From the NCBI GenBank assembly GCA_903884375.1, contig CAISER010000021.1:1-32926 (forward strand): a DNA stretch of 32,926 nucleotides, read 5' to 3'. A program made the position numbers and the translations under genes. The DNA comes from Candidatus Collierbacteria bacterium. Its GTDB lineage: Bacteria; Patescibacteriota; Microgenomatia; UBA1400; MFAQ01. Within the stretch, counting starts at the first letter, position 1; each line of letters starts with the position of its first letter. The notes under the pieces were generated by a model. It had not been told where the DNA came from. It ran no database searches and saw only the letters and a list, made by a program, of their open reading frames with translations. Shown here piece after piece: positions 29,149-30,529 of this stretch.

Positions 29149-29322
29149 ATGGCTAAAAAAGGACCAAGACAACACATGGGACTAAAATGTTCCAAATGTG
29201 GACATTTCAACTATATTTCCGAAAGAAATAAAACCAACACCCCCGAAAAACTCGTACTGAGCAAGTATTGCCGCACCTGCAGAGAACACACCGAACACAA
29301 GGAAGTCTCAAAATTAAAGTAG
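29149..29322 (+). CDS. rpmG: Ribosomal protein L33 (not in ORF track)
   Basis: MAKKGPRQHMGLKCSKCGHFNYISERNKTNTPEKLVLSKYCRTCREHTEHKEVSKLK-stop; Cys4 L33. Confidence 0.93.
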   Translation: MAKKGPRQHMGLKCSKCGHFNYISERNKTNTPEKLVLSKYCRTCREHTEHKEVSKLK

Positions 29323-29434
29323 GTAAAAATCACTTCCAGTCCAGCTACTGCTGGGAAAAGAGGTGTCTAAACTAAAGTAAGACACCGATATCCTTGGTAC
29401 TCGCAAGGACAAGGAAGTAAGTAAACTAAAGTAG
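29299..29434 (+). repeat. Three imperfect copies of the rpmG 3' end (EVSKLK-stop)
   Basis: GAAGTCTCAAAATTAAAGTAG (rpmG end), GAGGTGTCTAAACTAAAGTAA (~29361-29380), GAAGTAAGTAAACTAAAGTAG (~29413-29433). Confidence 0.75.
29332..29418 (+). ncRNA. Putative cloverleaf-like structured RNA in the rpmG 3' region (not a canonical tRNA)
   Basis: Closing stem ACTTCC/GGAAGT encloses CCAGC-TACT-GCTGG, GGTGTC-13nt-GACACC and TCCTTG-7nt-CAAGGA. Confidence 0.5.
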
Positions 29435-29456: not shown

Positions 29457-29482
29457 CTCCAAAATCCATTTGGAGGATTTTT
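29457..29482 (+). terminator. Intrinsic terminator of the rpmG transcript
   Basis: CTCCAAA ATCCA TTTGGAG GATTTTT. Confidence 0.8.
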
Positions 29483-29509
29483 GTATCACAATACAATATA
29501 TGCTATTAT

Positions 29510-29521
29510 GGTTATATAACC
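29510..29521. promoter_or_regulatory. 12-bp palindrome adjacent to the HTH ORF start; candidate operator
   Basis: GGTTATATAACC, overlapping a possible -10 (TATAAC) 5 nt before ATG. Confidence 0.45.
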
Positions 29522-29525
29522 GCAT

Positions 29526-30188
29526 ATGTTATATCCATTAGTCTTCAAAGAAAAAGCTATCATTCTAAGAAATCAAGGCTATTCAATCAAAGAAATCGCC
29601 AAAACATTGAATATCCCTGTTTCAACTTCTTCAACATGGGTATCCAAGGTCAAACTCAGTTCTGATAACAAAAAATTACTTGCTCAAAAAAAAATCCTCG
29701 GACAGATGAAGTCATCAGTTGTCATCAAAGAAAAAACGCGTCAGAGAAAAATCGTCTCAGATGTCGAAGCTATCCAGTTGGTAAAAAAAATCAAATCTAA
29801 TCGCAATTTAGATGCACTTCTATGTTCAATTCTTTATTGGGCCGAAGGATCAAAGAACTGTAGCAACGTCGGCTTTACAAACTCAGACCCAAAGATGATT
29901 TCCACTTTCCTAAAGCTATTTCGCTCTGCCTTCGATTTGGATGAATCGAAGTTTCATTGTCTAATTCATGTTCACGAATACCATAATGACCAGGAAGAAA
30001 AACAATTCTGGTCAAAATTAACTAATATTCCCCAAAACCAGTTCTTCAGAAGCTATCACAAACCTCATACCGGTAAAAGAAAGAAACCAAACTACCACGG
30101 TACAATCAGCGTTCGTTATTATGACGCTAAGATTGCCGTTAAGATCAACTCAATCTATAATATGTATGTTCAATCAATAGGGGTGTGA
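29526..30188 (+). CDS. HTH-domain protein with possible LAGLIDADG-endonuclease-like C-terminal region
   Basis: N-terminal HTH (AIILRNQGYSIKEIAKTLNIPVSTSSTWVSKVKLS); C-terminal LLCSILYWAEGSKN...FTNSDPKMISTFLKLFR...HVHEYH...FWSKLTNIPQNQF. Confidence 0.7.
   Translation: MLYPLVFKEKAIILRNQGYSIKEIAKTLNIPVSTSSTWVSKVKLSSDNKKLLAQKKILGQMKSSVVIKEKTRQRKIVSDVEAIQLVKKIKSNRNLDALLCSILYWAEGSKNCSNVGFTNSDPKMISTFLKLFRSAFDLDESKFHCLIHVHEYHNDQEEKQFWSKLTNIPQNQFFRSYHKPHTGKRKKPNYHGTISVRYYDAKIAVKINSIYNMYVQSIGV
30133..30161 (+). promoter_or_regulatory. tRNA-Trp promoter inside the HTH ORF
   Basis: TTGCCG - 17 bp - TATAAT, ~18 nt before tRNA position 1. Confidence 0.75.
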
Positions 30189-30249
30189 TGAAATGGTATC
30201 ATGGAGCTCTCCAAAAGCTCTCTTTCAGGTTCGAGTCCTGACACCCCTG
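30179..30249 (+). tRNA. tRNA-Trp (CCA anticodon)
   Basis: Acceptor AGGGGTG/CACCCCT, discriminator G, U8, D-stem ATGA/TCAT, GAGCT-CTCCAAA-AGCTC, TCAGG-TTCGAGT-CCTGA; followed by CA rather than CCA. Confidence 0.95.
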
Positions 30250-30288
30250 CAATAAAAATCTCTCGCTTGTCGGGAGATTTTTATTGCA
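30248..30288 (+). terminator. Long hairpin terminator abutting tRNA-Trp
   Basis: TGCAATAAAAATCTC/GAGATTTTTATTGCA 15-bp perfect stem plus 3 inner pairs, loop CTTGT. Confidence 0.85.
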
Positions 30289-30396
30289 ACATGAGGAATC
30301 GAAAGGCGGAGACAAGCTCGTAACGATCTTGTCGAGCCGGGGTCGACGAATTTATCAGCAGATAAATATCGGTGACCGAGTCATTCCACTCCTGCA
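30285..30396 (+). ncRNA. Putative structured RNA 1 (three-way junction), GC-rich
   Basis: P1 TGCA/GAG/GAAT with ATTC/CTC/TGCA; P2 GGC-GACAAG-TCG-TAA-CGA-CTTGTC-GCC; P3 GGTC-CGA-ATTTATC-AGCA-GATAAAT-TCG-GACC; followed by a terminator. Confidence 0.55.
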
Positions 30397-30406
30397 TAAA
30401 TAAAAG

Positions 30407-30435: not shown

Positions 30436-30446
30436 ATAGATATATG

Positions 30447-30529
30447 GAGGAATCGGATGACACAGCCGTGGCTGACGGCGAGTCGGGTCCGAAAGAATCG
30501 TCAGCGGTCAATTATAAAGAAACTCATTC
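30447..30529 (+). ncRNA. Putative structured element 2, related to element 1
   Basis: Begins GAGGAATCG like element 1, has TCATTC near its end, GC-rich, 7-bp stem GCTGACG/CGTCAGC and outer TGAC/GTCA. Confidence 0.35.

Follow-up and report, generated by a model that had tools for sequence, protein, structure and literature searches.

Recoded copies of the rpmG 3' end stacked behind the gene in a Candidatus Collierbacteria genome

Why should the gene for a ribosomal protein be followed by two further copies of its own end, each spelled in different codons? The question is raised by a stretch of 32,926 nucleotides (the window) that makes up contig C21 of a small, CPR-like Candidatus Collierbacteria genome (G000; 815 kb, 97% complete, 43 contigs). 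The plus-strand rpmG gene for ribosomal protein L33 lies at 29149-29322 (Pfam PF00471, E 3.6e-16, over cut-off); its closest matches within the family are 81-95% identical, and it is the only match to the PF00471 profile in the genome. Its last eight codons (T1, 29299-29322, AAG GAA GTC TCA AAA TTA AAG TAG), which form the functional 3' end, recur on the same strand at 29357-29380 (T2, AAA GAG GTG TCT AAA CTA AAG TAA) and at 29411-29434 (T3, AAG GAA GTA AGT AAA CTA AAG TAG). All three encode KEVSKLK-stop. The original prediction of three rpmG 3' ends in different synonymous codons is thereby confirmed; its repeat unit, EVSKLK-stop, is present in every copy and proves one codon too short. The pairs differ at 6, 5 and 6 of 24 nucleotides, with no amino-acid change at all, and the serine codon switches between TCA, TCT and AGT. 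T1 and T2 are separated by a spacer of 34 nt (29323-29356) with the hairpin CCAGC-TACT-GCTGG at 29341-29354, and T2 and T3 by one of 30 nt (29381-29410) with the hairpin TCCTTG-GTACTCG-CAAGGA at 29391-29409. A terminator-like hairpin (CTCCAAA/TTTGGAG, then GATTTTTG) lies beyond T3 at 29457-29483; all three hairpins are on the plus strand and were recognised from sequence and folding. In addition, ACTTCC in the first spacer is the complement of GGAAGT in T1 and T3.

A chance origin of this array is ruled out by the uniqueness of the pattern, a reversed control, substitution statistics and a scan of other genes. T1, T2 and T3 are the only three matches to the degenerate tail pattern AARGARNNNNNNAARYTNAARTRR in the 815-kb genome, while the reversed two-tail pattern had no match in 381 genomes of the class. 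The probability that the peptide is kept under random substitution is 5e-6 to 1e-4, depending on the pair, and 1e-4 to 6e-4 when a transition bias and an AT bias are allowed for. We also scanned 3,660 ORFs, in 685 kb of the genome, for C termini re-encoded within 400 nt in at least six of seven residues plus the stop. This gave no second case of the rpmG type; the remaining matches were one lysine-rich chance similarity, one short and improbable ORF, and a plain repeat in the DNA. Slippage or recent duplication is excluded by the synonymous divergence, as had been argued from the codons. In-place vertical duplication followed by neutral decay fails as well, since 0 of 358,138 simulations over a grid at the observed divergence kept both displaced peptides. 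Decayed paralogs, which had also been proposed, are unlikely in a genome with one L33 gene.

Because the differences are only synonymous, the serine box switches and neutral decay is rejected, T1, T2 and T3 look, on sequence grounds, like the ends of diverged live rpmG genes, which upholds the origin first suggested for them. We see no route by which the displaced copies could be under coding selection in place, since T1 already ends in a stop codon. Our preferred view is that each displaced tail accumulated its differences elsewhere, at the end of a live rpmG gene, and arrived recently.

Close relatives supply the one-tailed sites that the original prediction proposed to look for. A second tail at rpmG is absent from the 92 other genomes of the order, with the single exception of G047, whose double tail (G047:C80, L067) is an assembly artefact, a scaffold gap with Ns flanked by duplicated rpmG 3' sequence. 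A tRNA-Trp gene follows rpmG directly in the relatives G005, G004, G017, G003 and G008, and also in G155 and G167 of another family. Since rpmG directly precedes tRNA-Trp in relatives, the order in G000 (rpmG, three tails, a helix-turn-helix (HTH) gene, tRNA-Trp) is derived. The array is neither shared in the same three copies by all relatives nor a product of chance, the two outcomes that had been named in advance as counting against the prediction. As a separate observation, the tRNA-Trp-like sequence 3' of rpmG in G139 (C13:504-1527, minus strand, L163) appears interrupted or shortened, and is followed by an ORF starting MHYVYILLSLKDKNIYTGF that is GIY-YIG-like by eye.

Similar arrays are found elsewhere in the class. 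A two-tail motif scan of 381 genomes matched G000 and two further families; the motif behind these strict cases fixes five codons and the stop, so that their conservation is partly ascertained, while G000 was not found that way. Three tails are present in G130 (RETDKLK, KETDKLK and KETDKLK). In G111, from the same family, there are two, contained in a repeat that is identical over 32 nt, with 81 nt between them. Two KEVDKLK tails stand 40 nt apart in G266, and for this pair the decay simulation kept the peptide in 17 of 118,065 runs. When 76 rpmG loci were inspected less strictly, a degenerate second tail, GESSKLK-stop, emerged behind a strong hairpin in G124; the reverse strand yielded nothing comparably strong. 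Together these arrays cover four families, that of G000 included, with spacers that always measure 30-81 nt and are hairpin-forming in most. The second tail of G124 abuts a convergent downstream gene, which in G185 lies just beyond a single tail; the hairpin and the first tail of G124 therefore look like the addition, and the comparison suggests that additions occur on the gene-proximal side. The motif, which may be unsuited to other classes, revealed no additional array in a phylum sample of 382 genomes, most of which lie outside the class. A search of GTDB r220 with the two-tail pattern, covering first tails that start with AAAG, gave no rpmG array, and both of its matches were AT-rich repeats outside rpmG.

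Taken together, these results lead us to read the array as the trace of incoming DNA that has repeatedly replaced the rpmG 3' end, a reading that we regard as an even bet. A short incoming segment, made up of the last codons of a diverged rpmG and a small hairpin, would recombine or insert at the end of the resident gene, supply a new peptide-identical tail and push the previous one downstream; two such events would give T1-hairpin-T2-hairpin-T3, with T3 the oldest. The tails would be of horizontal origin and would have arrived in the order T3, T2, T1. The process would be driven by site-specific cleavage or recombination at the end of rpmG, for which a homing endonuclease, an integrase and hairpin transposition or template switching are candidates. 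What is observed in support is the three tails, their synonymous-only divergence, the single-tailed relatives, the recurrence in other families and one spacer that is a dispersed repeat. In addition, the G000 tails differ from one another by 5-6 nt, within the 3-11 nt that separate them from the tails of other genera. Against it, the endonuclease-like gene of the window lies downstream of all tails and belongs to a family that tracks tRNA genes. No donor of the tails was found. At 24 nt, the tails are too short for tree tests of foreign versus native tails; comparison with relatives gave a mixed pattern in G124 and singled out no native copy in G000. Tentatively, and with the balance of probability on the other side, we also consider a more general proposal: mobile elements of about 55-105 bp, consisting of a hairpin and the recoded last 8-11 rpmG codons, would invade the rpmG 3' end in CPR bacteria, restore the protein and stack with the newest nearest the gene, with no enzyme gene of their own. 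If the replacement reading is true, the end of a core ribosomal-protein gene has been swapped by incoming DNA with the protein unchanged, and tail arrays are a readable record of past events with a simple sequence signature for searches.

The original prediction had invoked successive integrations, with larger elements to be expected between the tails. Successive events that restore the C terminus are the best available reading; the large elements are absent, no genome examined having one between its tails. This bears on the idea that the tails are integrase scars, in which elements whose attP matches the 3' end of rpmG would have integrated, restored the gene and later been deleted, leaving tail-hairpin-tail as attL and attR with terminator or arm remnants. 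The 3' ends of ribosomal-protein genes had been named as integration sites of some integrative elements, and for rpmG this is documented: its 3' end is the target of the tyrosine integrases of streptococcal ICEs (Ambroset et al. 2016, PMC4701971). The idea predicts the same order of new and old tails and sits well with the 32-nt perfect direct repeat of G111. However, no integrase was recognised on reading the ORF list of the window, no kb-scale tail-to-tail element appears among the matches listed for the 381 genomes, and independent deletions would hardly leave spacers of 30-81 nt every time. We therefore consider integrase scars unlikely.

The spacers themselves suggest another possibility, that single-strand transposition or template switching places a REP-like hairpin next to rpmG and copies the neighbouring tail in the process, the older duplicates then diverging. 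The spacers of G111 and G130 (f34) are one repeat family, with a conserved core ATCGCTCCTTGAGCCGCAGTTCAAATGAACTAAGGCGAAAGGTAAGAT between variable, mutually complementary outer arms, and fold at z -4.7. G185, which belongs to another family, has two copies with 85-88% identity at intergenic sites that are unrelated, so that the spacer is a dispersed hairpin element; copies of this structured repeat, common to two families, are at L199 (1490-1568), L203 (1480-1565) and L198. The G124 spacer hairpin likewise resembles hairpins in G185 and G030 by eye, and the identity of the G111 copies over 32 nt fits a duplication. Nevertheless, no gene-tail copies are visible around the G185 repeats, and the synonymous-only divergence of the displaced G000 copies is left unexplained, which makes this account quite unlikely in our judgement.

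The gene behind the array offers a different route. It encodes a 220-aa protein (29526-30188, plus strand) with a helix-turn-helix and a LAGLIDADG-like domain, and its stop codon overlaps by 10 nt the 5' end of the tRNA-Trp gene (CCA; 30179-30250, plus strand). The second domain carries an LYWAEG motif, in which E107 and G108 are at least 90% conserved in 26 members, and a profile of the 26 homologues weakly matches I-DmoI (E 0.003). An AlphaFold model (pLDDT 95) gave no significant match in a fold search, with I-DmoI at rank 44; no LAGLIDADG model is among the Pfam families listed for the protein, and a phage collection held no homologue of it. Just upstream of the gene, the palindrome GGTTATATAACC (29510-29521, no strand assigned) is a possible self-operator, judged by its sequence, and also precedes the G015 gene that is 50% identical. 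The homologue ends within 40 nt upstream of a same-strand tRNA gene in 23 of 30 loci (L038-L066 and the window), at spacings from a 37-nt overlap to a 32-nt gap. At least nine isotypes are involved (Trp, Arg, Ser, Val, Gly, Ala, Ile, Met and Tyr), and the closest homologue group is at tRNA-Trp. These genes look like a mobile family directed to tRNA 5' ends and not to rpmG. A literature search for such a gene family at tRNA 5' ends found no paper, and we regard the family as a second, well-supported lead. Farther downstream, the intergenic sequence after tRNA-Trp is hairpin-rich (GGAATCGAAAGGCGGAG...GAGTCATTCC; 30287-30400 and 30446-30500), and similar sequence follows tRNA-Trp in G005 (L006).

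The 220-aa gene is a candidate for either driver or passenger of the array. If it homed into the 5' end of tRNA-Trp, co-conversion of flanks from donors with the order rpmG-gene-tRNA-Trp could have added rpmG tails. The adjacency of rpmG and tRNA-Trp in relatives, the insertion of the gene between the two in G000, where it overlaps the tRNA gene, and the tRNA association of its homologues all accord with this, and in G000 the gene may have brought rpmG flanks along. Yet no tail copies precede the closest homologue (G015, 50%), and the arrays of G130, G111, G266 and G124 were not seen beside such a gene or tRNA-Trp; the gene cannot explain those arrays, and we hold flank co-conversion to be very unlikely. 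The G266 array is followed by a different gene, for a 553-aa protein (L080, 963-2624), placed between rpmG and a gene that is PAP2-type phosphatase-like by eye. The protein has LAGLIDADG-like motifs (LAWFIGYTGGAS and FLSGIFDGRA), again by eye only, and matches nothing in Pfam or the PDB. Judged in the same manner, a PAP2-type phosphatase-like gene is the direct neighbour of rpmG in G299 and G410.

Finally, a functional structured 3' UTR, with protein-binding or RNA-stabilising hairpins conserved for the RNA and a coding match that is secondary, would agree with the better folding of the whole array than of shuffled sequence (z about -3) and with the 7-bp hairpin around T2 (GGTGTCT/AGACACC, 29362-29386), but is hardly credible, as the differences follow codon degeneracy including serine-box switches that RNA binding does not predict, the array is missing from nearly all relatives, and neither it nor the spacer repeats match Rfam.

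How does the replacement reading compare with known systems? The streptococcal ICEs share the target but are large and carry tyrosine integrases, none of which was seen here, and the direct repeats at rpmG bound only 30-81 nt in place of an integrase element. REP, BIME and REPIN sequences are small dispersed extragenic hairpins, as is the G111/G130 spacer, with its two copies in G185; for the G000 spacers, 685 kb of their genome contain no further copy. REPs are not known to us to copy the 3' codons of a particular gene. The gene at 29526-30188 resembles I-ShaI and the LAGLIDADG enzymes of CPR rRNA introns (Tsurumaki et al. 2024, PMC11270868) in its single putative LAGLIDADG-type domain, CPR-like hosts and association with RNA genes, but differs in standing free at tRNA 5' ends, outside any intron, and in its N-terminal HTH. 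The yeast WHO elements at FBA1 (Coughlan et al. 2020, PMC7282813) repeatedly replace the 3' end of a gene and push the old tails downstream. Compared with WHO clusters, the rpmG arrays are bacterial, their tails span only 8-11 codons and keep the peptide when displaced, and the G000 gene family tracks tRNA genes. Spacers of only 30-81 nt stand where WHO clusters have an endonuclease gene between the new and the displaced 3' ends, and for lack of such a gene the rpmG array is not a member of the WHO family. On the other hand, both contain displaced, diverged 3' fragments of the target gene, in both the end of an essential gene would be replaced by diverged protein-compatible versions with the same polarity, and putative LAGLIDADG-like genes lie nearby in two of the rpmG cases, G000 and G266. 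If our reading is true, genomes regarded as streamlined contain, in these arrays, a bacterial counterpart of the WHO clusters of yeast.
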